Below, in pieces: positions 71 to 36,353 of a stretch of 41,997 bases of DNA. Each line of letters opens with the position of its first letter. Position 1 is the stretch's first letter. The stretch is from IMG/VR virus record IMGVR_UViG_3300005530_000016, positions 1 through 41,997 of that record, one strand, 5' to 3'. The DNA comes from a virus. Below the pieces are notes generated by a model. That model saw nothing but the letters and a program-made list of their open reading frames with translations. It searched no databases and was not told the origin of the DNA. The position numbers and the translations under genes were made by a program.

Positions 71-212
71 CTGTTTTAAGCCAAAAAACGCGAAAGCATG
101 GAGCGCGTAGATTTCCAAGCGTGGGGCATAGTTTGAGTGTGGGGCATAGTTTGAGTGTGAAGCTGTGGCACTTTATAGTAATCGTAGAAATGCTATAGCA
201 TAGTACGCGACC
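71..212. other. Non-coding, repeat-rich stretch
   Basis: I see no convincing gene here. The stretch holds an 18-bp tandem duplication (121-138 and 139-156, unit beginning GTGGGGCATAG) and a degenerate echo of the terminal repeat near 90-107 (GCGAAAGCATGGAGCGC compared with GCGAGAGCATGGAGGGC). Together with 41835-41997 it makes about 375 bases of repeat-bearing non-coding DNA across the circle junction. This is a candidate packaging, replication or attachment region, but nothing in it identifies which. Confidence 0.5.
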
Positions 213-530
213 TTACGAAGAGTAGTGCGTTGGGGAAAACCCATCAGGTGTAAAAACCTGATGGGTTTTTTTATCGTTGCTACTTTCTAATGCCTCTTTT
301 TTAACATTTAGTTGGGACTGCGCCTGGAGTAATTCATCATCTGTCGCCACATCGAGTCCATCGGAATATTCTTCCGTCATCTCGTCGATGATTTCACATT
401 CCAAATCATAGCGACGCTCGGCGAACGCTTCTTTGAAATCGACAGTATCAGTAACATTTTCTTTGAAATATTCCGCGAGCGACTCGATAATCTGCTCTCT
501 GGTAGCTTGACTTAGACTTTTCTTTTTCAT
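213..530 (-). CDS. Small acidic protein of unknown function
   Basis: The 105-residue acidic protein begins MKKKSLSQATREQ. The start at 530 follows a good ribosome binding site (AAAGGAG) that itself lies right after a small intrinsic terminator hairpin. I do not recognise a family. Its final ~20 residues are encoded by the strong terminator hairpin at 238-272, so the natural stop may have been lost or the hairpin is tolerated as coding sequence. It is the last gene of the leftward small-gene operon starting near 2504 and may be expressed only by partial readthrough of the hairpin before it. Confidence 0.65.
   Translation of the reverse strand: MKKKSLSQATREQIIESLAEYFKENVTDTVDFKEAFAERRYDLECEIIDEMTEEYSDGLDVATDDELLQAQSQLNVKKEALESSNDKKTHQVFTPDGFSPTHYSS
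238..272. terminator. Strong bidirectional intrinsic terminator
   Basis: Perfect 12-bp inverted repeat (AACCCATCAGGT at 238-249, ACCTGATGGGTT at 256-267) with a 6-base loop and a T run on the plus strand. The minus strand has a shorter T run. It ends the leftward operon and overlaps the 3' coding end of the gene stopping at 213. Confidence 0.85.
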
Positions 531-555
531 TTTCGATTCTCCTTTTTCTTTCTTT

Positions 556-591
556 TAAAAAATAAAACCCACTAACACATAGGCGTAGTGG
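556..591 (-). terminator. Small terminator between two operon genes
   Basis: Read leftward, CCACTA (591-586) pairs with TAGTGG (574-569) and is followed by GTTTTATTTTTT, directly before the AAAGGAG of the next gene (start 530). It lies over the 3' end of the gene stopping at 572. Placing a terminator immediately before a ribosome site recurs at 908-927 and 2516-2542. Confidence 0.6.
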
Positions 592-889
592 ACATTTCTT
601 CTTGTTGTGGAGAGGTAATAGGAATCTCAGGGAACAGTTTTTCCACGAATCTACGAAAGCTCTCGCAACGCATAACGAGATGGGCAGAGCGCATAATCTC
701 GCCCTCACGCAATACACCGACATTATGCGCCTGATGCAGCTTGTTGAGGGCGTAGTGGAGGCTCAGCACTTCAAAGAACATATTATTCTCTAGCTTATCT
801 GCGCACCACTCAATCATCTCAGGCAGGCTCATATGGTCGAGCATATGGTCGCCAATCTCCTGCCACTCGTCTTCATTTCTCGTTGACAC
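572..889 (-). CDS. Small protein of unknown function, GTG start
   Basis: The predicted 105-residue protein starts at a GTG (889), because AAAAGGAG sits 6 bases upstream and the longer open frame to 1039 runs through the structured leader. The sequence (STRNEDEWQEIGDHMLDHM...) is helical and acidic with a Pro/Thr tail. I do not recognise a family. It is preceded by its own promoter (1008-1035) and the paired-helix leader at 920-1002, so its expression is probably controlled by attenuation. Confidence 0.7.
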   Translation of the reverse strand: MSTRNEDEWQEIGDHMLDHMSLPEMIEWCADKLENNMFFEVLSLHYALNKLHQAHNVGVLREGEIMRSAHLVMRCESFRRFVEKLFPEIPITSPQQEEMSTTPMC

Positions 890-907: not shown

Positions 908-1002
908 CAAAAAAAAAGAACCCCCACCAATCTGAACTAATCCAATGCGGTTGGGATAGTCAGACCGTGGGGGTCTGTTTTTGATTTTTCTTCCCAACCG
1001 CA
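908..1002 (-). promoter_or_regulatory. Structured mRNA leader / attenuator, copy 1
   Basis: In the leftward RNA, four segments occur in the order b-a-b'-a'. Segment b is 1002-992 and b' is 956-946 (11 perfect pairs, TGCGGTTGGGA). Segment a is 974-967 and a' is 927-920 (ACCCCCAC with GTGGGGGT). Segment a lies in the loop of b:b', and a' lies downstream, followed by a T run and then the ribosome site of the gene starting at 889. The two helices can form an H-type pseudoknot or be alternatives, with a:a' acting as a terminator. The same order of elements is found at 2527-2619. Confidence 0.7.
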
Positions 1003-1007
1003 CTATT

Positions 1008-1035
1008 ATCATACCAAAAATTTTTACAGAATCAA
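1008..1035 (-). promoter_or_regulatory. Sigma-70-type promoter of the 889 gene
   Basis: Leftward -35 TTGATT (1035-1030), 16-base spacer, -10 TATGAT (1013-1008) preceded by TTTTTGG. The predicted start falls at about 1002, exactly where leader segment b begins. The -35, spacing, -10 and position relative to the leader are the same as at 2624-2651. Confidence 0.7.
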
Positions 1036-1072
1036 GCATTAGAAGGATGAGCCATGATTTTATCCTTTCTCC

Positions 1073-1315
1073 TTAAAGCGTGTAATACGGTAAATTGTAA
1101 ATGCCTGAAGAGTGTAAATAAGTTCCAGCAGATGGAGCGTTTACTAAATTAATAAAATGAGATTTATCAACTTCATAAACGCAAATGGCACCGTCCTTGA
1201 ATTCTACAAGTAACTCCCCAAACATGTCATCATATGCGCAGCTACGTATCCATCCGCTTGCAGAATTAACACTCTCCCATTGTAAATCATCGACCAAGTT
1301 AGTTCTCTCGTCCAT
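1073..1315 (-). CDS. KTSC-domain small protein
   Basis: 80 residues from the ATG at 1315, chosen because GAGGAG lies 4 bases upstream. The ATG at 1330 has no such site. The core reads W..V.S....IRSCAYDD...LLVEFKDGAICVYEV...FINLVNAPSAGTYL, which matches the KTSC family pattern (S-x-I, sigYD, L.V.F..G..Y.Y..V, A.S.G.y). KTSC proteins are small and common in phages; some are fused to nucleic-acid enzymes, and their role is not established. The gene overlaps the end of its upstream neighbour by 17 bases, which indicates translational coupling. Confidence 0.7.
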   Translation of the reverse strand: MDERTNLVDDLQWESVNSASGWIRSCAYDDMFGELLVEFKDGAICVYEVDKSHFINLVNAPSAGTYLHSSGIYNLPYYTL

Positions 1316-1562
1316 TTCGCTCCTCTTCAATTATTTGCTCGCCCACAGCGATTAGATTATCTAGTTTGTCGATTTTTTCTTTTCGCTCTTGGAGAGGCAT
1401 ACGGCACATAGTTACCGCTTGAGCCACCGTAAGACCCATATGCGAAATTACTCTTTCAAATCGCAGATACAGGCGATAAATTGCCTGTTCTTCATTTGTT
1501 GCTGTGTGTTGAATTACTTTTTGATGTAATTCTTGCATATTCTGAAAAAATTGTTCGGTCAT
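1299..1562 (-). CDS. Small helical protein of unknown function
   Basis: 87 residues, predicted mostly alpha-helical and charged, starting at 1562 with AGGAG 5 bases upstream. No family is recognised. It sits between the 58-residue gene ending at 1572 and the KTSC gene, whose start overlaps its 3' end, so the three are read as one leftward unit. Confidence 0.65.
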   Translation of the reverse strand: MTEQFFQNMQELHQKVIQHTATNEEQAIYRLYLRFERVISHMGLTVAQAVTMCRMPLQERKEKIDKLDNLIAVGEQIIEEERNGREN

Positions 1563-1571
1563 GGTAATCTC

Positions 1572-1748
1572 CTACAAATCTAAGAACCCGTGCGCACTGA
1601 CAAACACATCCCAGAGTCTTTCAGCGGAGAATAGGTGGACTGTAGCATCGTCTATCTCTCGCATTGTGTCTGCACTGACCACGGTAAACATCGAATAGTG
1701 AAGGTCGTCTACGTTCTGCCGTGTATCGTGCCATGTATCGTCGTCCAT
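1572..1748 (-). CDS. 58-residue acidic protein of unknown function
   Basis: A short open frame, MDDDTWHDTRQNVDDLHYSM through SAHGFLDL, fills the gap between two operon genes. Its start at 1748 lies 9 bases after the upstream stop (1758), and its TAG stop overlaps the ribosome site of the next gene. AAGGAG lies about 13 bases upstream, overlapping the previous stop, which is rather far. The tight fit in the operon is the main support; no family is recognised. Confidence 0.5.
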   Translation of the reverse strand: MDDDTWHDTRQNVDDLHYSMFTVVSADTMREIDDATVHLFSAERLWDVFVSAHGFLDL

Positions 1749-1757
1749 CGGCTCTTT

Positions 1758-2180
1758 CTAATCTCCTTCCCAATTAGGCAAATCGTAGATAAACGGAATG
1801 GTTGTGCCATCGACACCATCCCACTCTTCCCAACTTTCGAGACTCTCTTCGCTATTATCCAAAAGTGCCTGCTGTTCATTCCATCGAGTATAGGCGAGCC
1901 AAGCTTCGTGCCTGGGACCAAGCAGACCTGGCACGTCCCAACCTTCGCCATCAACCTCATGCTTGTTAGAAAAATAGCCATTTGCAATCAGGTGAGTCAG
2001 TCCGCCATCAATCGAACGTTGTGGCTTGTTTAGTTTTTGCGCTACGTAGCTGGTGATATCCTTGGTTTCGCCAATACTCCAGCCGATGAAGCCCATGTGG
2101 CAATCTCGTACTACCACATCAAGAATAGTGTCCAGGATTTGCTGTCCCAAAGGGGTGATTTTTTTCATTTTCGTTTGCAT
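1758..2180 (-). CDS. Unknown protein with winged-helix-like N-terminus
   Basis: 140 residues, start at 2180 behind AAAGGAG. Residues about 8-70 (GQQILDTILDVVV ... SYVAQKLNKPQRSIDGGLTHLIANGYF) have the spacing of a winged helix-turn-helix: helices, then a Q-R-S-I recognition-like turn, then L-x-x-G-y-F. The acidic, Trp-rich C-terminus (EEWDGVDGTTIPFIYDLPNWEGD) is unusual. DNA binding is an inference from pattern only. It is the second gene of the leftward operon starting at 2504. Confidence 0.55.
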   Translation of the reverse strand: MQTKMKKITPLGQQILDTILDVVVRDCHMGFIGWSIGETKDITSYVAQKLNKPQRSIDGGLTHLIANGYFSNKHEVDGEGWDVPGLLGPRHEAWLAYTRWNEQQALLDNSEESLESWEEWDGVDGTTIPFIYDLPNWEGD

Positions 2181-2216
2181 TTTTGGTCTCCTTTCTTCCT
2201 CAGGCTTGGGAAAATT

Positions 2217-2504
2217 TCATGCGTCATCAAAGGCGTTTTCATACATCGAGTATGGTAGCCAGCGCGTGTGAGCGTACTCTACATCATCGCCTGAACCAAC
2301 CAAGCGCTCATAATTATTTTCAGCCACAATGTAGCTGACCTTATCTGCTGACGTAAAATGGATGGTGGCTTGGGGATAGCGCTCTTCAGCTGCTATCTTG
2401 AGTTGCTCCCTAAACGAGGCGAGTAGCTCCCCCTCGCAGTCCCACCTCGCGATTTCATTCTCATCCACAAAGATGGCATAGTAGTCCGAGTCTGTGACTT
2501 CCAT
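2217..2504 (-). CDS. Small acidic protein of unknown function
   Basis: 95 residues, MEVTDSDYYAIFVDENEIARWDC..., with an alternating pattern compatible with an alpha/beta fold. The start at 2504 has AAAGGAGAGG directly upstream. It is the first gene after the second copy of the promoter plus paired-helix leader (2516-2651), so it is the gene most directly controlled by that element. No family is recognised. Confidence 0.65.
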   Translation of the reverse strand: MEVTDSDYYAIFVDENEIARWDCEGELLASFREQLKIAAEERYPQATIHFTSADKVSYIVAENNYERLVGSGDDVEYAHTRWLPYSMYENAFDDA

Positions 2505-2512
2505 TTTCCTCT

Positions 2513-2619
2513 CCTTTAAAAAAATAAACCCCCCAATATAGCATGTATCGTCATCGGTGCGACCCAGACGAGCTATATGGGGGGTTCGTGAATTTTTACT
2601 TTCGCCGTCTGAGTCGCAC
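2513..2619 (-). promoter_or_regulatory. Structured mRNA leader / attenuator, copy 2
   Basis: Same b-a-b'-a' order as 908-1002 with unrelated stem sequences. Segment b at 2619-2606 pairs with b' at 2570-2557 (13 of 14 positions). Segment a at 2586-2572 (AACCCCCCATATAGC) pairs with a' at 2542-2527 with one bulge. Then come T-rich bases and the AAAGGAGAGG of the gene starting at 2504. Helix a:a' followed by U-rich RNA is a plausible intrinsic terminator; b:b' encloses segment a. Confidence 0.7.
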
Positions 2620-2623
2620 TTAA

Positions 2624-2651
2624 ATCATACCATAGATTTTTTGCGAATCAA
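2624..2651 (-). promoter_or_regulatory. Sigma-70-type promoter of the 2504 operon
   Basis: Leftward -35 TTGATT (2651-2646), 16-base spacer, -10 TATGAT (2629-2624), with GG before the -10. The predicted transcript begins at or just before leader segment b at 2619. It matches the promoter at 1008-1035 in every element. Confidence 0.7.
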
Positions 2652-2711: not shown

Positions 2712-2906
2712 CTAATGAATACATTCTTTAAAAAGTAAAAATGCTACTACCTTGGGATTGGTCTCATCAGTCCAGTGTCTCTTTATCCTCTCTAAGTAGA
2801 AGCCCTCATAGGTAGGTAGTGCTTCATCCCGCTCCAAAATACAATCTACCCTCTTGACAATCCAGCCATCTCCATCAAGTTCATTCGTTAATTTAACTAT
2901 TTGCAC
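2712..2906 (-). CDS. 64-residue protein of unknown function, GTG start
   Basis: Reads QIVKLTNELDGDGWIVKRVDCILERDEALPTYEGFYLERIKRHW and so on; Arg/Lys/Glu-rich with several Trp. The GTG at 2906 has TTGGAG 5 bases upstream and overlaps the end of the glycosyltransferase gene (stop at 2893), implying coupled translation. No family is recognised. Confidence 0.55.
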   Translation of the reverse strand: MQIVKLTNELDGDGWIVKRVDCILERDEALPTYEGFYLERIKRHWTDETNPKVVAFLLFKECIH

Positions 2907-3594
2907 GTGTCTCCAATATATTTCTGATTCTGTTGCCCTCTCCTTCCATGCACGCCCTACTCACATTATTCCTGCTGATTGCCCTATACCTATCGTGAAC
3001 TGCATCATTACCTCGTGTACCGCAACAAGGACTAAAGTGAAATACCTCCAATGACGGACAATACACTAATCGACCAGCAGAACTCCATTGACCGTGGTGA
3101 TGAATGTCTTGACAGCTGGTTGTGTTCTCAACGTGTACCAAATAACCTGCGGCGGAATATGCGGGTCTTGTCATGCACGGAAAACAAAAATAACCTGCAT
3201 TGAGATTATCTTTACCGGCGAGAGCAACAGCACCATCAGGAAATTCTTTTTTAATTTCCTCTAGCCGGTTGAGCGTTTCCGTGTCCCATCCCTTGCGAGT
3301 TAGAATTACATCGTCATTTAGGAGCCATAAAATTGAACCGCTAGTAAGTCTGGCGATAGTGTTATAATAATGTGTAAAGTTGGTTTGTCGGTTAAAATAA
3401 CAAAAGCGTAGCCAGGGATATTCTCGCATTAATTTTCCCGATTCACAAACTGTACTATTATCGTCGAAATCTATAGCGATAAAGCATTCAAGACGAGATA
3501 AAACAGAAGTCGTATCTTGTACGGATTGTAAAAACTGTCGCAATAGTGGGATTCTTTCGCGACTAGCCAGAATTAATGAAAAATCTGTGTCCAT
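2893..3594 (-). CDS. GT-A fold glycosyltransferase (family 2-like)
   Basis: 233 residues. The N-terminus (SLILASRERIPLLRQFLQSV) is the first strand and nucleotide-sugar loop of GT-A enzymes. LLNDDVILTRKGWD at about 91-104 supplies the acidic metal-binding motif (NDD in place of DXD). A His/Cys cluster lies near 160-200. The start at 3594 has no Shine-Dalgarno sequence but is preceded by ACTATAATAAAG, as in other virion-region genes. With the GT25-like gene at 5413-4139 and the GT at 24344, it suggests that the phage glycosylates its own proteins or the host surface. The acceptor cannot be read from the sequence. Confidence 0.75.
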   Translation of the reverse strand: MDTDFSLILASRERIPLLRQFLQSVQDTTSVLSRLECFIAIDFDDNSTVCESGKLMREYPWLRFCYFNRQTNFTHYYNTIARLTSGSILWLLNDDVILTRKGWDTETLNRLEEIKKEFPDGAVALAGKDNLNAGYFCFPCMTRPAYSAAGYLVHVENTTSCQDIHHHGQWSSAGRLVYCPSLEVFHFSPCCGTRGNDAVHDRYRAISRNNVSRACMEGEGNRIRNILETRANS

Positions 3595-3608: not shown

Positions 3609-4190
3609 ATGGGAAATAAGCTTAAAAAGAACCGCTTTGAAACCGTGATTGAGGATGGGATTGTGTATGTGCCGCTAAGTAGAGGATTATTCGCAAAATT
3701 AGATTTAGAAGATTATAACAATTTCAACGTTGGAAATTATAACTGGTATGCCAGAAGAGTACATTATCGTGGACAATATTATTTAAATTTTTACGCCGCC
3801 ACCACAATGGATGGCAAAATCATTTACTTACATTCGTTATTGCGAGGAAAGGGGGCTGACCATGTAGATGGTGATGGACTCAATAATCTCAGTACGAATT
3901 TACGACCTGCCACCCAAAGCCAAAATAATGCCAATCGAAACAAAAGCCCAAATTGTACTTCTAAATATAAAGGTGTGAGCAAAAACAAAAATAAATGGCA
4001 GGCGCAAATAAAGCACAATAAGAAAAAACATTATCTTGGACGTTTTGAAAAAGAATCCGATGCAGCTATTTGTTATGACCGAGAAGCTTGTAAAATATTT
4101 GGTGAGTACGCGAAACCAAACTTTGTAATTCACTACGATTACGAAGCTACTGGAGGCTTTAATAAGTCTTCCACTTCTTCCACCGTATGA
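3609..4190 (+). CDS. HNH homing-type endonuclease with AP2 domain
   Basis: 193 residues from the ATG at 3609. Residues about 74-100 form the HNH core (YLHSLLRGKGADHVDGDGLN, with H75, D84-H85 and N93 as candidate catalytic or metal residues). Residues about 117-171 form an AP2/ERF-type DNA-binding domain (SKYKGVSKNKNKWQAQI ... HYLGRFEKESDAA). This HNH-AP2 arrangement is typical of free-standing phage homing endonucleases. It sits in the opposite strand between two glycosyltransferase genes. Its last ~17 codons overlap the 3' end of the GT25-like gene, so the insertion probably took over that end. Confidence 0.85.
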   Translation: MGNKLKKNRFETVIEDGIVYVPLSRGLFAKLDLEDYNNFNVGNYNWYARRVHYRGQYYLNFYAATTMDGKIIYLHSLLRGKGADHVDGDGLNNLSTNLRPATQSQNNANRNKSPNCTSKYKGVSKNKNKWQAQIKHNKKKHYLGRFEKESDAAICYDREACKIFGEYAKPNFVIHYDYEATGGFNKSSTSSTV

Positions 4191-5413
4191 CACAATTTCA
4201 CATCGTAATCTGTACTATTTCGCACTTCGTCAAAAACTAACTGAGGATGATACAGACATGCTTTTTGTTTTTTTGCGACTGCTTCATATTCTAACGTGTG
4301 TATAATATTACTTAATCGCCAATTTGCATCTCCCATAGTATACAGCCTTAAACCATTATCGAGTCCTGTAATAGGGTCTATCCAATTACCAATATGAACT
4401 TTATCTTTTACCGCATCAAACACTTTTTTATCTTCAACCATAATTACGAAGTGTTTAGGCTTGAGAGAATAATCGTGGATTCGTAATAAAGCATCTACGG
4501 CTTGGGGCAAGGATGTAATTTCAAGAACAGGTCCAGTCCAACATTCTTTTACTAATTGCGTCTCTAACTCAGGATGATAAAGACCCAAAGTCCATTCTTC
4601 CTCACTTGCTACTTCCCACATTAAATCACCAATCCATTTTGTTAATTTAATTTTGTCATTGAAAGAATCTACCAAGCCTGCGTCAATGCCCTGTGAATTT
4701 AATGTGTATCCCAAATGGACATTGTAACTTTCTCTTAGTTCGTTAATTTCTTCTTGACTACATTTTAAAACCAAAATTGTTTCATCGCCATTAGGAGGAC
4801 AGAAAAACTTTTTAGGATTGGTACGATAATTGATGTTTGAGAGAGAATGGGATTGACCACACAAAAAAGGGTCAGGAGCATAAATCTTGAATTTTTTTTG
4901 AACCTCACCCACATGCCAATCACAATGACTATCCACCCTTTGCCACAAATCCAACAGTGCCTTCATATAAGCTCTATTGGCCGAGTAACTGTGAGTACGC
5001 TGCGTATTAGTACAACGCACGACATGCTTATTGATTCTTACTGGTGCTGAAATATGCTGACCGCCTAAACAAACACCATCGAAACGAACGCCATCCGCAT
5101 CTTCTGGCAAATTTTCCAAAAATTCAGCATACTTCACTCTAAAATTGCTTCTAAAACATGCATCGTCCTCGAATACTAAAATGTTCTGCACGTCATCGTT
5201 TAATGCTTCAGCGAGGACTGTACAATGAGAACGAGCGCAACACGCAGCCGGTCCTCCCTCTGTAAACCATTCAGGACAGCCCAGCTTATTGTGGTCGTAG
5301 GCGTTAAAGCGTTTTATATTTTCAAAATCTGTTTTTTTAATTTCGTCATTAAACTCGCGCCATCTATCAGGTCTGCGCAATAAATTGATGCATACAATAC
5401 GGTCAAATTTCAT
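4139..5413 (-). CDS. GT25-like glycosyltransferase with extra C-terminal domain
   Basis: 424 residues. CINLLRRPDRW (8-18), the Cys/His segment PAACCARSHCTVL (about 55-67) and ILVFEDDACF (78-87) match glycosyltransferase family 25 (LPS/procollagen galactosyltransferase-like), which uses the EDD motif for metal and nucleotide-sugar binding. Residues beyond about 235 form an additional domain I cannot assign. AGGAAGG lies just upstream of the ATG at 5413, which overlaps the previous stop by 4 bases. The last 17 codons overlap the HNH gene on the other strand. A virion or host-surface acceptor is inferred. Confidence 0.8.
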   Translation of the reverse strand: MKFDRIVCINLLRRPDRWREFNDEIKKTDFENIKRFNAYDHNKLGCPEWFTEGGPAACCARSHCTVLAEALNDDVQNILVFEDDACFRSNFRVKYAEFLENLPEDADGVRFDGVCLGGQHISAPVRINKHVVRCTNTQRTHSYSANRAYMKALLDLWQRVDSHCDWHVGEVQKKFKIYAPDPFLCGQSHSLSNINYRTNPKKFFCPPNGDETILVLKCSQEEINELRESYNVHLGYTLNSQGIDAGLVDSFNDKIKLTKWIGDLMWEVASEEEWTLGLYHPELETQLVKECWTGPVLEITSLPQAVDALLRIHDYSLKPKHFVIMVEDKKVFDAVKDKVHIGNWIDPITGLDNGLRLYTMGDANWRLSNIIHTLEYEAVAKKQKACLYHPQLVFDEVRNSTDYDVKLCHTVEEVEDLLKPPVAS

Positions 5414-6164: not shown

Positions 6165-6899
6165 TTACTCCGTTATAGTTATGGTTGCCGTACCGCCTAA
6201 ACAATAAGACGGAAACGGGAAACCATTAAAAACTAATAAAAAGGGATTACAAGTGTGCGTAGAGGGATTGGCGGGGATTCCCGTTGGTACAGTCAGTTGC
6301 CATACGCCGACTTGCTGACAGATTAAAACAAATTGTGGCGAAGCGCAAGAGTCATTTGGATTATTCCAAGTCGTTCCACCAGCCCAAATTAACGCTAAAC
6401 TATCAGGTAAACAGGTACAAGCACCAGTTTTATTTGTAATTGAAACATGTAGTGTAGTCGGCAACCCATTGGAACAACATTGCGTATGGATTAATTGTTG
6501 CGCACTACTTGAGCTACTTACACTTGCACCACTTGCACTAGCACTACTTGAACTACTACTACTTGAGGAAACTGGCACTTGTAAACAGTAATATTTGCGC
6601 TGTCCTGGAGGTGGTGGAGGAGTAGGTCCACCACTGCCGCCACCACTACCACCACTTGCTGAGCTACTGGATTGTTGAGACCCAGATTGTTGTGACCCAC
6701 CAGATTGTTGAGAACCACCAGATTGTTGTGAACCACCAGATTGTTGCGATTGCTGAGACTGTTGTGAACCACCAGATTGTTGAGACCCTGATTGTTGAGA
6801 CCCTGACTGCGCACTGGACGCACTGGATACGGAGGCTGAGCTTTGAGAGCTACTGGAGCTACTTGAAGTCGCGCAACAAGGGCAATCAGGATATATCAT
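6165..6899 (-). CDS. Ser/Gln/Gly-repeat adhesin-like protein
   Basis: 244 residues from the ATG at 6899 (MIYPDCPCCA). Residues about 10-95 are almost entirely Ser, Gln and Gly, with tandem SGGSQQ units, followed by a poly-Pro stretch, YYCLQVP, a second Ser/Ala run, and a C-terminal Cys-rich domain (TCLPDSLALIW ... FVLICQQVGVWQLTVP ... CNPFLLVFNG ... YCLGG) paralogous to that of the 6163 gene. It has no Shine-Dalgarno sequence and lies 7 bases after the previous stop. Extended flexible linkers with terminal beta domains suggest a surface-exposed virion fibre; glycosylation is an inference. Confidence 0.65.
   Translation of the reverse strand: MIYPDCPCCATSSSSSSSQSSASVSSASSAQSGSQQSGSQQSGGSQQSQQSQQSGGSQQSGGSQQSGGSQQSGSQQSSSSASGGSGGGSGGPTPPPPPGQRKYYCLQVPVSSSSSSSSSASASGASVSSSSSAQQLIHTQCCSNGLPTTLHVSITNKTGACTCLPDSLALIWAGGTTWNNPNDSCASPQFVLICQQVGVWQLTVPTGIPANPSTHTCNPFLLVFNGFPFPSYCLGGTATITITE
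6663..6806. repeat. Short tandem coding repeats (S/Q/G linker)
   Basis: Imperfect 15- and 18-base units around CCAGATTGTTGTGAACCA encode the SGGSQQ/SQQ repeats of the gene above. Units vary mainly at third positions and lose or gain whole codons, as expected for slippage within a coding repeat. Confidence 0.8.
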
Positions 6900-6906
6900 T
6901 ATTATA

Positions 6907-8307
6907 TTAATCAAAAGGCGTTGTGTTAAAGTTCACCGGCACCTGCACGCCATTAACAATTACAAATCCAGTAAGAGTAACCCTGTTAACCTGTAATCCC
7001 GCATTTGGCAGACAGGTCGTTTGTTGCACCACCACAGCACCATTACCCGGCGCAGCCGATGCCGAAGAAGCTGACGCCGACGAACTACTACTACTTGACG
7101 CCGACGATGACGATACTGGCGGTGCAAGAAAGTGATGCATAAACTCTTCAAAACCTGCATTATAGGGCGAGCGCATCACTCGTGTATTACAGCGACCCTC
7201 TGACCAATACCAACAAATATCGTGCTGTCCTTCAGGAGACCATAAATAAAATGAATAAACAACATCTAAAGTATCTGATGCCCAACCAAAATAATCTGTT
7301 GCCAACTGCTGAGCTAATGCAGAAACCAATCCTTGATTTTGCACGATACCAGCTACCCAAGCTTCGGCAGTCGTATGCATCGTTTTTGTGCCAGCGACTC
7401 CACCAGCCAAAGGCACAGTTATTGACGAACAATCACCTTGAGAACGCAAATAAGGCACATGATGAGGATTATTCTTCTCTCCATCTTGTGGATTCACATA
7501 CGTACCATCAGAAATATTACGCTGAGGAAAAGATACGGTCACTTGTTTCGGCAAAATTGCTAGAAGTCCGTTACCGCCAGCTAATGGAGTCCCTGATGCC
7601 GCCAGATTTGCTGTAACTGTGGCATTAGCTTCTTCAGGTCGTTGCGCAGTATAAGAACCATCCAAATTACGAACTAACACCCGACCCACATTCATCAAAC
7701 ACGCATCAAGCAAAAAAGCCACATTTTCAAAACGAGATGTTAAATCACTTTGAGGATGAGGTTGAGCATATACTGCTTCAATGGGTGACACGAAATTAAT
7801 CGCAATGTTTAAGATACCTGCTAAATTATTAATTAAGGTTGTCCAGTCCGAAGTTTCGGTAATGGTCAGATTATTAGCATTTGAATACTGGAAAAAATAA
7901 CGGTCATCAACAAAGGTAGCTAAATATAGTGCTGGCGTAAAAGGACTTAAAGGTCGTAAAGAAATTAAATAAACATCCTGAATTATAATGGAACCGCCAT
8001 CCTGTAATAACCTAAGCGTACCAATCCCACCAACCGTTAATTGATTCTTCTCCGTTTCAGTAATTAATAAGTTTAATTCCATCCAACGTGAAGCGCCTGT
8101 AGGATACGTAATTTCACCCACACGTACAGGATTTCGTTCTGTTTGTTTTATAGGTGTCGTTAATCCCAATAAATTTGTTTTATTAACTGTAGGTGGATTG
8201 GTGATATGTGTCGAAGGCAAAGGTATGTAATTATTCTGCCATGCCCTTGCTTCAGGAGTATCCAAACACAAAATAACGCCGTTCCAAGATAACTCAAATA
8301 ATGACAT
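6907..8307 (-). CDS. Virion structural/adhesin protein with Ser linker
   Basis: 466 residues beginning MSLFELSWNGVILC. Most of the protein (1-385) looks like a beta-rich structural domain that I cannot assign. A Ser/Ala linker follows at about 395-420, then a short C-terminal beta domain (VNRVTLTGFVIVNGVQVPVNFN). AATAAATA lies 8 bases before the ATG, with no Shine-Dalgarno sequence. It is directly upstream of the two Ser-rich adhesin genes, so it may be a baseplate or tail-tip protein that carries them. Confidence in virion location is moderate; the precise role is unknown. Confidence 0.6.
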   Translation of the reverse strand: MSLFELSWNGVILCLDTPEARAWQNNYIPLPSTHITNPPTVNKTNLLGLTTPIKQTERNPVRVGEITYPTGASRWMELNLLITETEKNQLTVGGIGTLRLLQDGGSIIIQDVYLISLRPLSPFTPALYLATFVDDRYFFQYSNANNLTITETSDWTTLINNLAGILNIAINFVSPIEAVYAQPHPQSDLTSRFENVAFLLDACLMNVGRVLVRNLDGSYTAQRPEEANATVTANLAASGTPLAGGNGLLAILPKQVTVSFPQRNISDGTYVNPQDGEKNNPHHVPYLRSQGDCSSITVPLAGGVAGTKTMHTTAEAWVAGIVQNQGLVSALAQQLATDYFGWASDTLDVVYSFYLWSPEGQHDICWYWSEGRCNTRVMRSPYNAGFEEFMHHFLAPPVSSSSASSSSSSSASASSASAAPGNGAVVVQQTTCLPNAGLQVNRVTLTGFVIVNGVQVPVNFNTTPFD

Positions 8308-21642: not shown

Positions 21643-21909
21643 ATGTCTGAAGTATTTGTTAATGGTTATATGAGATTAAAATTCCCGAAAAGCTTTTTGG
21701 GCATAGGCGAAGTGGAATATCTAATGCCCTACAAAAATCCAACAATTGACATTAACCTCGATATGATTTTAGAAAATGTAGAACTGGATATGGGAAGCAT
21801 GGGGAAAATAGTCATCAAACAATTACATATAAAACACATTAAAGGTGAAATGGAACCTGTGTGGGACGGAAACAAAGATACTATGATTCTCTTTGATAAA
21901 ATAAATTAA
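21643..21909 (+). CDS. Unknown 88-residue protein
   Basis: Strand-rich (MSEVFVNGYMRLKFPKSFLG ... MGKIVIKQLHIKHIKGEMEPVWDG). TAGGAG lies 7 bases before the ATG. Divergent from the scaffold gene; its stop overlaps the convergent sigma gene by 4 bases. No family is recognised. Confidence 0.6.
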   Translation: MSEVFVNGYMRLKFPKSFLGIGEVEYLMPYKNPTIDINLDMILENVELDMGSMGKIVIKQLHIKHIKGEMEPVWDGNKDTMILFDKIN

Positions 21910-22352
21910 TCTTCATCGTGATAGCCTAATTTTTCCGCAGCCAAATTAACTAGAAAATCCGTATTATTCTTGGTGAGAAAATCATAAAAGCGTTCTTTAA
22001 GTTGCTTGTACATTTTGGCAGTACGGTACTGTTGGCGAAAATGATTAAGGATACAAGTAGTGAAGTAATTGAAACCTTTGCTACGAATGCCCGAAGCAGA
22101 AACATAATTAGGGTCAAAACAATCAATCTTTTCAAAACAAATCATGACGCCTTCCTGTAACATGTCGTCGTCGTCAATCAACTGAAAATGAAAGGCACGA
22201 ATAATATTGCCTGCCAGAATGTAAAATGCTTCTACCAATTCATTCTCAGCTATACGATAAGCTTCAGGCTTTTTCTTGCGTGAATGCTTGGCTTTTTTAA
22301 AAGTAGCAATTACCTCTTCAAACTTTTTGTTATTTAAATATTCAATTCCCAT
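21906..22352 (-). CDS. gp55-like late sigma factor (inferred)
   Basis: 148 residues. Begins GIEYLNNKKFEEVI and contains a sigma-region-2-like block at about 37-115: LVEAFYILAGNIIRAFHFQL, DDDDMLQEGVMICFEKIDCFDP, FNYFTTCILNHFRQQYRTAKMYKQLKE. The N-terminal Y-[LV]-N-N-K, the acidic D-M-L-Q-E-G-x-x-x-C turn, F-x-P, and F-x-Y-F-T then R-x-Q are what I know from T4 gp55, which directs RNA polymerase to TATAAATA late promoters. No region 4 is visible, also as in gp55. ACTAAATA-like motifs before virion genes support the role. A terminator precedes the gene. Confidence 0.6.
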   Translation of the reverse strand: MGIEYLNNKKFEEVIATFKKAKHSRKKKPEAYRIAENELVEAFYILAGNIIRAFHFQLIDDDDMLQEGVMICFEKIDCFDPNYVSASGIRSKGFNYFTTCILNHFRQQYRTAKMYKQLKERFYDFLTKNNTDFLVNLAAEKLGYHDED

Positions 22353-22466: not shown

Positions 22467-22682
22467 TTAGAGTAAGGGTTCACTATAATGCGAAAGAGTT
22501 AATTGTGTAATTTCTCCATTATACAAATCACTCAGCCATTCCTTAGTGTCTTCGTCGTCGAAATCAACTTGGAATAATTCATCAGGTGTGCCAAAACCCG
22601 AATCGTAACACCAAGCCAATCCATACTTGTCAACTAAATCTGCATACTCCTTCAGAAAATCTTTTTTTAATTTATTCATCAT
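22467..22682 (-). CDS. Small acidic protein after the portal
   Basis: 71 residues (or 70 from the second ATG at 22679): N-terminal basic helix KLKKDFLKEYADLVDKYGLAW, then acidic (FQVDFDDEDTKEWLSDL). Its start overlaps the portal stop by 11 bases, implying coupling. No family is recognised. Confidence 0.55.
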   Translation of the reverse strand: MMNKLKKDFLKEYADLVDKYGLAWCYDSGFGTPDELFQVDFDDEDTKEWLSDLYNGEITQLTLSHYSEPLL

Positions 22683-24309
22683 TATCTTTTTCTTTGTTTT
22701 CTTTATTAGGGTTCATCGAGAAATTAAAAGCTTGCTGTGCCATTTTGCTTAAAACCTTGTCACCCTGTTGTGGCTGATTCAAACCCAAAACACTCCTGAC
22801 CTGTTCCTCATCCAAATCAGCACCCATTTCAAACGCATTTTTAGCCGCGCTCATCCATTCCATTGGGTCGTTCTTGTCAACTACCAACTTATAAGTACAG
22901 TAAAATCTCGTTTCAGGGAATGTCCACTTTTGAATAACACTAACCAAATCTCGCGTAATCGTTTCCTGTAAATTAATAGCATCGAACTTTACAATACGAT
23001 GGAAAGTTTCTCCATGTTGTTGACCTACACCACTATTCATGCCAGAAGTAGTAGGATGTGAAGTTGCATCTTGACCCTGAATGTAACGGCGAATCTGTCC
23101 ACCAAAATAATCATCCAAGACCTTCAATAAGTTATCAACACCCACTGGACTTGGTTCAATCCTTTCAATATCCTCAGTGCTTTTTGGGTCGCTGGGGTCT
23201 TTCGGGAATAGTAAAACACCTTGGAACGATTCACTCTCTGCAATAGCTTTAGCAGCATTATAACTCTCTGAATTATTACGAATATAACGTATAATGGTTA
23301 ATCCCGTTCCAATACGTTCCATTAACTCAATTAACCAACCCGTCAATTCGTTCTGTAAATACCATGTCCAATATAATACTGACCTAATTCCAAGACCCTT
23401 TACTCCACCTGCGGACTCTGCTTCAAAGAAATCACCAGGCATCAATTCGTGCTGATGTAGAACCAAAGCTTCTCGTTCGTGGAAAGCTAACTGACGAATA
23501 CCTCCTTCCATGCCCGTATCGCCTAAAACGTGTGCCCTGCTGACATCTGTAGGTTGAGTGCTTAGTTTCTTGGTTCCTTGTGCGCCTGTGAAGATACCAA
23601 CCAAAATACCTACATCTTCGGAAGTGTATTTAAATTCCAAAGAGTCACCTTGCACTGGAGTCCAATCCTTAACCATCAATCGCTTAAAAGATTTTCGCCA
23701 GTCCCAATAAAAGTTATTAATGACAGCAAAACGACCAAACCAAATAGCATAAAGTAAAGCATATTTGTATTTTAAGAAATAAGGAACGCAATCAATGATA
23801 TTTTGAATTTCACTGGCTACCTTTAATTGTTCGGGGTCAGTTTTATCCTCTGGCTCTACATGTCCTTCTAATTCTGCCGTAGCTAACATTCTTGCCTGTA
23901 ATGGTGTACGAATGCTTAAATTACGCATCATGTTTCGCGCATTGGTACGAGAGTTTCTTATAGCTTCGTCAGGATTTAAATAGAAGTGACGAAAAGCGTT
24001 AATTAGACCAGCATATTGTTGGGCGGCTGGTACGATGATTGTTCCACCACCAGGAGGGATTTTATATTCTAAAAAATTACCTGTAGGCGTTTCTTTAATA
24101 GTGGAAATATTATTTAAAAAAGGACTTTCATTTAAAAAGTTATTGCCTCTATCAAAGGGCGTATTCATGGGATTAGCTGGCATGGCATAGCGTTTACGTC
24201 CGCCAGGCGTTTTATCGGCTGTTAATTTGCCAGATTTTTCCCACCTTGTGATGGTACTTGCAGACACTTTAAAGTGTGTCGCTGCTTCTTTTTTGCTCCA
24301 GTTTGACAT
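22672..24309 (-). CDS. Portal protein (DUF935-like) with N-terminal MerR-type HTH
   Basis: 545 residues. Residues 1-45 (WSKKEAATHFKVSASTITRW then TADKTPGGRKRY) are a textbook MerR/excisionase helix-turn-helix with its wing. From about 100 on the protein resembles DUF935 (Mu gp29-type) portals: RMLATAELEGHVEP, YALLYAIWFGRFAVI, HQHELMPGDFFEAE, LYWTWYLQNELTGWLIELMERIG, DDYFGGQIRRYIQGQDATS, then a helical tail. The two parts are in one uninterrupted frame. ACTAACTA lies 4 bases before the ATG with no Shine-Dalgarno sequence. A portal beginning with a DNA-binding domain is unexpected; it might touch packaged DNA or double as a regulator. Confidence 0.75.
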   Translation of the reverse strand: MSNWSKKEAATHFKVSASTITRWEKSGKLTADKTPGGRKRYAMPANPMNTPFDRGNNFLNESPFLNNISTIKETPTGNFLEYKIPPGGGTIIVPAAQQYAGLINAFRHFYLNPDEAIRNSRTNARNMMRNLSIRTPLQARMLATAELEGHVEPEDKTDPEQLKVASEIQNIIDCVPYFLKYKYALLYAIWFGRFAVINNFYWDWRKSFKRLMVKDWTPVQGDSLEFKYTSEDVGILVGIFTGAQGTKKLSTQPTDVSRAHVLGDTGMEGGIRQLAFHEREALVLHQHELMPGDFFEAESAGGVKGLGIRSVLYWTWYLQNELTGWLIELMERIGTGLTIIRYIRNNSESYNAAKAIAESESFQGVLLFPKDPSDPKSTEDIERIEPSPVGVDNLLKVLDDYFGGQIRRYIQGQDATSHPTTSGMNSGVGQQHGETFHRIVKFDAINLQETITRDLVSVIQKWTFPETRFYCTYKLVVDKNDPMEWMSAAKNAFEMGADLDEEQVRSVLGLNQPQQGDKVLSKMAQQAFNFSMNPNKENKEKDNDE

Positions 24310-24321: not shown

Positions 24322-24343
24322 TTTGCACTATGATAATTATACC

Positions 24344-25393
24344 ATGAATAAAAATAGCAAGAAAAGATTCTTTTTCCAAACAGAAGACATGTTAGGGCAG
24401 TCTTTTTATCGTTCTCTCCTACCTGGTGGTCACTTACAGGAAGACGGAGTAGCTGATATTGACCTCTATTCCACTCCCAATGATTTTAATTACGATGGCT
24501 ACGTTTACCATCGGTTAGTCAGTCCTGGTCAATTGAATGTAATCGAAATGGAAAGAATGAAAGGTAAAATCATCCTCTGGGAGACGGATGATGACATTTT
24601 TCACGTTCCTCATTGGAATCCTTGTGCGCCACAATATAACCGCTTTGAAAATCAGTCCATGAACAAATATATGGCTGAATGTTCATCACATATCATGGTG
24701 TCTACTAATTATCTGAAAAGCGTGATTGTTAGTGAAACGGGCGTCAATGGAGATAAGATTGTTGTATTACCTAATTTCCTCGATACTGAAGCATGGCCCA
24801 AACCAGCTAAAGACCATGATAAGATTCGACTCCTATGGGCTGGTAGTGGTTGTCATCTTCGCGACCTTGACCAGCTAGTAACACCATTAGAGCGAATTCT
24901 TGATGAATATGGCGACCAAATTCAAATAATCTTTATGGGCGACATTCCTGAAGGTATGTGCGAATATGTCAGAATTCAAGGTAATACATTTGGTTTTGCA
25001 GTTCCAGCCAAACGTTACAAAGGTCGTGTTGGTTACGTGCCACCTGTAACCGTTAGCGAATATGCCCAAACTTTATCTGATTTGGACTGTGATATTGCTT
25101 TTTGTCCTTTAACTGACGAACCCTTTAATCGTAGCAAAAGTAACTTGAAACAGTTGGAATATACGATGGCTGGTTGTACTTGCATTTGTACTGACCTGGA
25201 ACCCTATCATGACTTTCCTTGCTTATTAGTTAAACCAGGTGATGGCGAAGGTTGGTATAACGCCACCAAAACACTAATTGATAATGTTGCTAAGCGTGAC
25301 GATTTGTATACTAATGCCAGGGCTATGGTTGAGAGTAAGTATAGTTGGCGGGGAGTTGGTCAGGATTGGAAGAGATTTTTTGAATCTTTATGA
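24344..25393 (+). CDS. GT-B fold glycosyltransferase (GT4-like)
   Basis: 349 residues from the ATG at 24344. The C-terminal half has the GT4 layout: IVVLPNFLD, IRLLWAGSGCHLRDL at the start of the second Rossmann domain, IIFMGDIPEG, then NRSKSNLKQLEYTMAGCTCICTDLEPY, where the E lies in the nucleotide-sugar pocket region, and SWRGVGQDWKRFF at the end. The first domain has the W.TDDDIFHVP segment. It is divergent from the portal and heads a five-gene operon with the candidate anti-defence gene. Target glycan unknown; virion glycosylation is one option. Confidence 0.75.
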   Translation: MNKNSKKRFFFQTEDMLGQSFYRSLLPGGHLQEDGVADIDLYSTPNDFNYDGYVYHRLVSPGQLNVIEMERMKGKIILWETDDDIFHVPHWNPCAPQYNRFENQSMNKYMAECSSHIMVSTNYLKSVIVSETGVNGDKIVVLPNFLDTEAWPKPAKDHDKIRLLWAGSGCHLRDLDQLVTPLERILDEYGDQIQIIFMGDIPEGMCEYVRIQGNTFGFAVPAKRYKGRVGYVPPVTVSEYAQTLSDLDCDIAFCPLTDEPFNRSKSNLKQLEYTMAGCTCICTDLEPYHDFPCLLVKPGDGEGWYNATKTLIDNVAKRDDLYTNARAMVESKYSWRGVGQDWKRFFESL

Positions 25394-28235: not shown

Positions 28236-28641
28236 AGTTAAGCAGTTTTTGTAATTCCTCAGTAACTTCTTCTTCGGACTGTTGTTGCATAATTTCAATT
28301 TTCTTTGGTGCTTCCATTCCAGTAATACGGATGATACGGTCGATGGTACTATGCACGACCCTAGCCGCTTTTTCATCCCCTTCCCTCGCCTTGGGCAAAA
28401 ATGCTTTTATAATTTCATATAATTGCTTTAAGGTAATATTAGCCAGCTTTTCAATGGTCGTGTTTTGAATCTCTTCGCGCCAAATTTGATAGGCATGTTC
28501 TACATCTCTACATGAAGTCGAAACATTAACACCAGTAGCAAGCGCAATTTCAGACAAATTATAACCCAGAATCTTCATATCCCATGCTTTCTTTCTTCGC
28601 ATTCGGGTTCGCATTTTTCTTGCTGAATTTTTACTTTCCAC
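28216..28641 (-). CDS. terS: Terminase small subunit (probable)
   Basis: 141 residues, GTG start at 28641 with GAGGC upstream. Basic N-terminus (RKMRTRMRRKKAWDMK), then a helix-turn-helix (LGYNLSEIALATGVNVSTSC) that would bind the packaging site, then helices for oligomerisation and an acidic end that could contact TerL. Size and position upstream of terL fit. It is divergent from the giant adhesin gene with 77 bases between. Confidence 0.7.
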   Translation of the reverse strand: MESKNSARKMRTRMRRKKAWDMKILGYNLSEIALATGVNVSTSCRDVEHAYQIWREEIQNTTIEKLANITLKQLYEIIKAFLPKAREGDEKAARVVHSTIDRIIRITGMEAPKKIEIMQQQSEEEVTEELQKLLNYEDIKA

Positions 28642-35861: not shown

Positions 35862-36353
35862 TTACCAGCGCTCTCTGAGGCGTTTCTTGATAGCCATTAC
35901 GGTGCTTGGGGAAATCCCAAGTTGACGGGCGATGTCTTTTTGGGACACACCGTCAAGAATCAGGTCGATTACGTTCCGTTCTAGTTCGTCATGAGTCAGA
36001 GAAATTAGCTTGGCTACCATCTCCCTGAGCATGGCGACCTTATCGGGAAGAGGTTGACGGTCCCTAACCTCCTTCATGCCTGCACCTTGCCAGCAATGCT
36101 CCATTGCGTCTTGTTGGGTACTGTGAGGATAAAGGCGGGGTAAATCACGGCCAGCCCTAATGGCGATTACAGCGGCTCTGGGGATGTTTGTCGCTTTGCC
36201 GCACTTGTACAGGTGCCAGGAGTACACTAACGCCAGGGCTTGCCGTTCCTCATCGAGAGGAAATACCTTTTGAAAGTAACGGCACAGAGAAGGATACAGG
36301 TCGTCAAAACTTCCCATCTCAGACTCCTTGTGGGCGAAAGTTAATTGGTACAT
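35862..36353 (-). CDS. Sigma-region-4-like HTH regulator
   Basis: 163 residues. The C-terminus (ELERNVIDLILDGVSQKDIARQLGISPSTVMAIKKRLRERW) is a sigma-70 region 4 / LuxR-like helix-turn-helix. The N-terminal ~115 residues (LYPSLCRYFQKVFPLDEERQ ... IRAGRDLPRLYP) resemble regulators common in planctomycete genomes. There is no region 2, so it is more likely a DNA-binding regulator than a full sigma factor. Given its location it is a candidate for lysogeny or early-gene control. Confidence 0.65.
   Translation of the reverse strand: MYQLTFAHKESEMGSFDDLYPSLCRYFQKVFPLDEERQALALVYSWHLYKCGKATNIPRAAVIAIRAGRDLPRLYPHSTQQDAMEHCWQGAGMKEVRDRQPLPDKVAMLREMVAKLISLTHDELERNVIDLILDGVSQKDIARQLGISPSTVMAIKKRLRERW

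Follow-up and report, generated by a model that had tools for sequence, protein, structure and literature searches.

Background

In most textbook transcription attenuators, the strand captured by the antiterminator is one arm of the terminator's base. In plasmid attenuators controlled by antisense RNAs, and likewise in the P4 immunity RNA, an alternative upstream pairing decides whether the terminator of the leader forms. Type III toxin-antitoxin systems, such as ToxIN, arrange a promoter, a pseudoknot-capable RNA, a terminator and then a gene in series. In the expression platforms of the ZTP/pfl, fluoride crcB and yxjA riboswitches, an early fold resists strand displacement by the terminator (PMC10085676, PMC11077080). 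In the Salmonella prophage Gifsy-1, one promoter gives rise both to IsrK, a terminated small RNA, and to a read-through mRNA (PMC4825925), while the put RNAs of HK022 consist of two stem-loops which make the polymerase ignore distant terminators (PMC9378689).

The locus analysed here comprises two leftward modules of a phage genome, each composed of a promoter and a leader of approximately 95-100 nt in which two helices (b with b' and a with a') are interleaved and a:a' forms an intrinsic terminator. As in the riboswitch platforms, an early helix or pseudoknot is set against a later terminator between the promoter and the first gene, and the outcome, which in those platforms is set while the polymerase moves, is predicted to be set in the same way in the modules. 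Unlike these platforms, the modules have neither a conserved ligand pocket nor an Rfam match, b lies at the 5' end of the RNA, and the contested strand is found at the apex of the terminator and not at its base. Compared with textbook attenuators, the G-C-rich base of a:a' here escapes direct competition. A leader-peptide attenuator was also considered, and no Shine-Dalgarno-led frame occurs in either leader.

Further likenesses are partial. An alternative upstream pairing which competes with a leader terminator is shared with the antisense-controlled plasmid attenuators and the P4 immunity RNA, and a search for an antisense promoter or an RNA partner of the leaders gave no convincing candidate within the window. 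The serial arrangement of promoter, pseudoknot-capable RNA, terminator and gene recalls ToxIN; tandem repeats of the ToxIN type are absent from positions 900-1010 and 2515-2620, and the products of the first genes have no match to toxins of the ToxN, TenpN or CptN type in Pfam, PHROGs or PADLOC. As with IsrK, a promoter is followed by a short RNA ended by a terminator, and a downstream mRNA would arise by read-through, a succession deduced here from the architecture. IsrK, however, is a single locus whose regulation is translational and in trans, whereas two paired-helix copies are present here. Like the modules, the HK022 put RNAs come as a pair of comparable size, each downstream of a phage promoter, but the modules contain their own terminator and interleaved helices. 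The chances are marginally better than even that the modules are transcription attenuators, with a putative regulatory response.

Results

Genomic setting

The window, that is, the whole stretch of DNA analysed, is a virus record of IMG/VR of 41,997 bases with a G+C content of 40%. Its terminase and portal genes identify a tailed phage and, given that a phage-type integrase is also encoded, the phage is probably temperate. Both modules are located at the left end of the window, behind a long leftward block of structural genes.

Several other features of the window were recorded. An 18-base direct repeat (GTGGGGCATAGTTTGAGT, 2.2 copies, 121-159, plus strand) lies near the left end of the record. 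Structural-looking proteins with long low-complexity stretches, rich in Ser/Ala and in Gln/Ser, are encoded at 6165-8307 (minus strand). The gene at 2893-3594 has a weak match to glycosyltransferase family 2, and the products of 4139-5413 (minus strand) and 24323-25393 (plus strand) look like glycosyltransferases, judged by appearance. A portal protein candidate (22672-24309, minus strand) carries an N-terminal helix-turn-helix similar to those of MerR and excisionases (PHROG matches, residues 3-42). A small protein encoded at 21906-22352 (minus strand) has weak similarity to sigma-factor region 2, and another, at 35862-36353 (minus strand), resembles helix-turn-helix domains of the region 4 type; judging from such similarities, the two products are possibly phage-specific sigma-like factors.

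Layout of the two modules

The order proposed in the preliminary description, namely b-a-b'-a', a U-run and then the first gene's ribosome site, is present in both leaders. The features of module 1 and of the genes downstream are as follows.

1008-1035, minus strand: promoter, TTGATT, 16 bp, TATGAT, with extended -10 TGG
992-1003, minus strand: segment b, GTGCGGTTGGGA, likely transcript 5' end
960-975, minus strand: segment a, GACCCCCACGGTCTGA, 5' arm of the terminator
945-956, minus strand: segment b', TCCCAACCGCAT, partner of b or part of the terminator apex
919-935, minus strand: segment a', TCAGATTGGTGGGGGTT, 3' arm of the terminator
909-917, minus strand: U-run, 9 T
about 901-896 and 889, minus strand: Shine-Dalgarno site and GTG start
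572-889, minus strand: first gene, 105 aa, GTG start, Shine-Dalgarno site AGGAGA
544-591, minus strand: third terminator-then-ribosome-site junction, CCACTA..TAGTGG, TTTTATTTTTT, AGGAG
213-530, minus strand: second gene, 105 aa, plain terminator directly before its Shine-Dalgarno site

The corresponding features of module 2 are listed below.

2624-2651, minus strand: promoter, TTGATT, 16 bp, TATGAT, with extended -10 TGG
2606-2619, minus strand: segment b, GTGCGACTCAGACG
2572-2587, minus strand: segment a, GAACCCCCCATATAGC
2557-2570, minus strand: segment b', CGTCTGGGTCGCAC
2526-2542, minus strand: segment a', GCTATATTGGGGGGTTT
2518-2524, minus strand: U-run, 7 T
2515-2508 and 2504, minus strand: Shine-Dalgarno site, AGGAGAGG, and ATG start
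2217-2504, minus strand: first gene, 95 aa, ATG start, Shine-Dalgarno site AGGAGAGG
1073-2180, minus strand: further small leftward genes, 140, 58, 87 and 85 aa

The promoter shared by the modules had been given as a -35 TTGATT, a 16-base spacer and a -10 TATGAT, and this pattern was retrieved exactly twice in the window, both times on the minus strand, against 0.14 occurrences expected by chance; no shuffle reached two. In both promoters, a TG one base ahead of the second hexamer makes an extended -10 element (TGnTATGAT). From the -35 element to where b begins, the two copies have largely similar sequences, so that the modules look like duplicates. With the start site inferred from promoter spacing, b is the likely 5' end of the transcript in both modules.

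In both copies, the intrinsic terminator (a:a' followed by 9 or 7 T) stands directly before the Shine-Dalgarno site. Segment a of module 1 contributes, in addition, to a local hairpin of 6 bp, CAGACC-CCCAC-GGTCTG. On the plus strand, terminator-like hairpins with T-rich tails are found inside both modules (961-977 and 2568-2589), built from the same hairpin and the A-rich linker; as read from these motifs, the modules might stop transcription in both directions.

The junction at 544-591 overlaps the stop of the preceding gene and has neither a promoter nor b and b' segments. From this arrangement, terminators followed directly by a ribosome site seem to be a recurrent feature of the left arm. 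The products of the two first genes (572-889 and 2217-2504) belong to no family known to Pfam, PHROGs or PADLOC. A single-sequence structure model of the former is all-helical, with a mean pLDDT of 75 and no match in the PDB, and that of the latter is poor. The sole family match among the downstream proteins is the 85-aa product of the last gene of 1073-2180, a KTSC-domain protein.

Complementarity, compensation and significance

The pairing of b is complete in both copies. In copy 1, for which 11 of 11 pairs had been reported, 11 Watson-Crick pairs and one G-U pair were counted, in a run which can be extended into the presumed start region. In copy 2 all 14 positions pair, one of them as G-U, the 13 of 14 counted earlier being the Watson-Crick pairs only. 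The figures for a required revision: the 8 pairs attributed to copy 1 became 9 at the base and, beyond a one-base bulge, another 7, and the approximately 15 of copy 2 became 16, again with a one-base bulge.

The preliminary description held that the stems differ between copies while remaining complementary, which is accurate for about half of each stem; the other half is alike. When the twelve b pairs are placed in a common register, 4 are changed on both sides (pairs 6, 7, 9 and 10, doubly compensated), 2 on one side (pairs 1 and 8) and 6 are unchanged. The first five pairs (GUGCG) are alike in both copies, pair 1 being G-U in one and G-C in the other. Similarly, the copies agree in the C-run and G-run at the base of a, and the upper parts of a are unrelated between them, yet still complementary. 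The strong selection on RNA structure asserted from these data is a fair reading as regards the existence of the pairing, and its basis is two related copies, not a family.

A descriptor of the interleaved layout (b-a-b'-a'-T5) had 2 matches in the window, searched on both strands, 0 in 20 dinucleotide shuffles and none in a control set of 225 kb, taken from other phages and E. coli. When the terminator was kept fixed and the 5' segment was shuffled, an equally good helix to the terminator loop arose in 4 of 20,000 trials for copy 1 and in none of 20,000 for copy 2. The absence of the descriptor from shuffles and controls, together with the rarity of such helices, indicates that the layout is not due to chance.

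Folding and competition between the helices

Folding draws b' into the apex of the a:a' terminator hairpin in both copies, through CCAA/UUGG together with CUA/UAG in copy 1 and UCGUC/GACGA together with GGU/ACC in copy 2. Barring b and b' from pairing cost the terminator 6.3 kcal/mol in copy 1 and 10.7 kcal/mol in copy 2, energies which, like all those given here, leave out pseudoknots, magnesium and the polymerase. Because b' is within the terminator apex, b:b' and the complete terminator compete directly for it, and in the folding model the two are mutually exclusive not only topologically but also through the bases they pair. The folding z-scores were -3.2 and -3.9 for the leaders and -5 to -6 for the two halves.

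In stepwise folding, b:b' is stable from a length of approximately 56-60 nt (-27.3 and -27.8 kcal/mol). It gives way to the terminator at 84 and 92 nt, once a' is complete, at -30 to -35 kcal/mol and ending at -33 and -35 kcal/mol. The b:b' helix arises about 25-30 nt before the terminator in the course of transcription, and the probability of its core falls from 1.0 to less than 0.01 at the takeover. Refolding of b:b' into the terminator has to surmount 24 to 28 kcal/mol along the lowest path found, a barrier overstated by a model without pseudoknots. With such a barrier, refolding would be far slower than the transit of the polymerase through the U-run, and b:b', once formed, would act as a kinetic trap.

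A pseudoknot combining both helices was also considered. The summed energies of b:b' and a:a' are -38.1 kcal/mol in copy 1 (basal a stem only) and -50.3 kcal/mol in copy 2, before any pseudoknot penalty, which makes such a fold competitive, and the loops (L1 of 16-18 nt, L3 of 14-17 nt) look sufficiently long in both copies. The 9-10 G-C-rich basal pairs of a:a' could still form despite b:b'. With its 3' end held by the polymerase, a long a:a' helix may be hard to wind into a loop closed by b:b', a consideration which would favour the switch. Of the switch between b:b' and the a:a' terminator foreseen in the preliminary description, the RNA-structure signal, the terminator and the earlier competing b:b' were all recovered; the pseudoknot, its other option, is energetically allowed as well.

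Relatives and partners of the leaders

Two relatives of the phage were retrieved. One is a 2-kb viral fragment with a capsid protein identical to that of the window. The other (L007) is a distant phage relative whose head genes are 32-51% identical (42-51% for the main head genes); it has neither the left arm nor a b-a-b'-a' leader. Its match to the portal candidate begins only at residue 84, and it has a relative of the 24323-25393 protein. No relative carrying the leader region was found among viral contigs, which were queried with five proteins or alignments from the window as well as two DNA patterns built on the promoter, or among genome contigs, queried with two, in scans which rely on short exact peptide matches and which relatives below about 60% identity can escape. 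Three matches to the promoter patterns (L004-L006) were rejected as homologous leaders and are considered chance matches because the helices are absent from them. BLAST of the leaders against phages returned only chance matches, and the covariance models of Rfam 15 had no match at the gathering score in the window, with only chance hits in the leader region. A conserved unpaired core of the kind that binds a ligand was not found between the two leaders, which have only the A-rich linker in common.

Complementarity to b, b' or the linkers elsewhere in the window was at chance level only. One identity of 15 nt, GAAAGTAAAAATTCA, connects the first linker of module 2 (2589-2603, minus strand) with 28624-28638 (minus strand), in the first codons of the 28216-28641 gene. 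The start of this gene was dropped as a target, as such a match occurred in 1 of 25 shuffles and is probably due to chance.

Discussion

We lean, if only slightly, towards the view that each module consists of a promoter and, downstream of it, a transcription attenuator in which b:b' and the terminator compete, the regulatory response being putative. The layout unique in the window, a helix beyond chance, the early formation of b:b' and the four doubly compensated b pairs argue for it. Against it stand the lack of a conserved unpaired core and of homologues in the searches described above, as well as the basal part of a:a', which has no direct competitor and could therefore pair within a pseudoknot and terminate anyway.

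Under this attenuator model, if b:b' forms first, the terminator could not nucleate at its apex and would require either the opening of b:b' or the threading of a pseudoknot. The polymerase would then tend to proceed past the U-run, and the cluster of small genes would be transcribed. Conversely, if b is tied up, or if the polymerase is slow enough for the switch to take place, the terminator would form and transcription would stop after approximately 95-100 nt. The modules would thus amount to one gate in duplicate, whose state depends on base pairing and the kinetics of folding and not on a small-molecule pocket. Candidates for shifting the balance are the speed of the polymerase, an RNA-binding or antitermination protein, and an RNA acting in trans, for example the terminated leader. 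As an elaboration of the latter, which we consider improbable, the 5' terminus would pair into the terminator apex and a terminated leader with exposed b or b' would act in trans on nascent leaders, so that each cluster of small genes would restrain its own transcription through b:b' sequences particular to its copy.

In the main alternative, the terminator would be constitutive and the modules would produce two small RNAs of about 95-100 nt, folded as long H-type pseudoknots (b:b' with a:a') with a protected 5' end and possibly acting in trans, with the genes expressed through leaky read-through. The full pairing of b and its position, beginning at the likely 5' end, agree with this explanation, as does the fact that the helices can coexist only as a pseudoknot, which the summed energies permit and for which L1 and L3 look long enough in both copies; IsrK provides a prophage precedent, in which a single promoter serves both a terminated small RNA and a read-through mRNA (PMC4825925). 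A fixed pseudoknot, however, would have no use for the apex pairing which engages b' (CCAA/UUGG in one copy, UCGUC/GACGA in the other), and no target of the leaders stands out within the window. We regard this alternative as possible but rather unlikely. It appears far less plausible that the helices bind the polymerase after initiation, as the put RNAs of HK022 do, and render it resistant to terminators of the operon, including the one before the 213-530 gene. The number of copies and promoters, the size of approximately 70-100 nt and the terminators preceding left-arm genes would suit such a function, and HK022 likewise has two put RNAs (PMC9378689); nevertheless, put consists of two stem-loops which are similar between copies, whereas here the helices interleave, the stems are unrelated over half of their length, the element includes a terminator of its own and Rfam gives no match.

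The early fold, the overlapping terminator and the possible pseudoknot could also belong to a small-molecule riboswitch that has so far escaped recognition and whose pseudoknotted sensor overlaps the terminator, as in the fluoride and guanidine-IV classes; in the fluoride riboswitch, the pseudoknot overlaps the terminator base (PMC11077080). Such a sensor is very unlikely here, given that only the A-rich linker is alike between the copies, with no conserved unpaired core, that Rfam has no match and that the small phage proteins downstream have no metabolic theme. There is a similarly slim chance that the modules function at the DNA level, or in a mixed manner, with the inverted repeats serving as operators or as a two-strand terminator and the interleaving as a by-product. 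The plus-strand hairpins at 961-977 and 2568-2589 fit a terminator of this kind, but no evident plus-strand gene runs into either module, and the differences in b between copies are matched by its complement, a correspondence that an operator for a single protein would not require. Least credible is ribosome-controlled attenuation through a leaderless peptide for which b would supply the GUG start codon (VRLRRRK-stop in copy 2, VRLG.. in copy 1). Both b segments begin with GTG-CG- and copy 2 offers a 7-codon, arginine-rich frame ending in TAA. The GTG is, however, only 5 nt past the -10 element, which places the start codon at or before the usual start site, and copy 1 has no stop and continues in frame into the gene; neither frame has a Shine-Dalgarno site. 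The peptide was rejected on the grounds of this spacing and of the stopless copy 1.

Conclusions

Both modules are a testable element in an otherwise unannotated phage. As the source of a terminated pseudoknot RNA, they would constitute a pair of phage small RNAs. Should the switch prove real, the phage would carry, in duplicate, a ligand-free attenuator of about 100 nt that is set by nothing but base pairs. The locus would then be a compact natural test case for pseudoknot topology and 5'-end pairing in intrinsic termination, with two sequence-divergent versions ready for mutational swaps.
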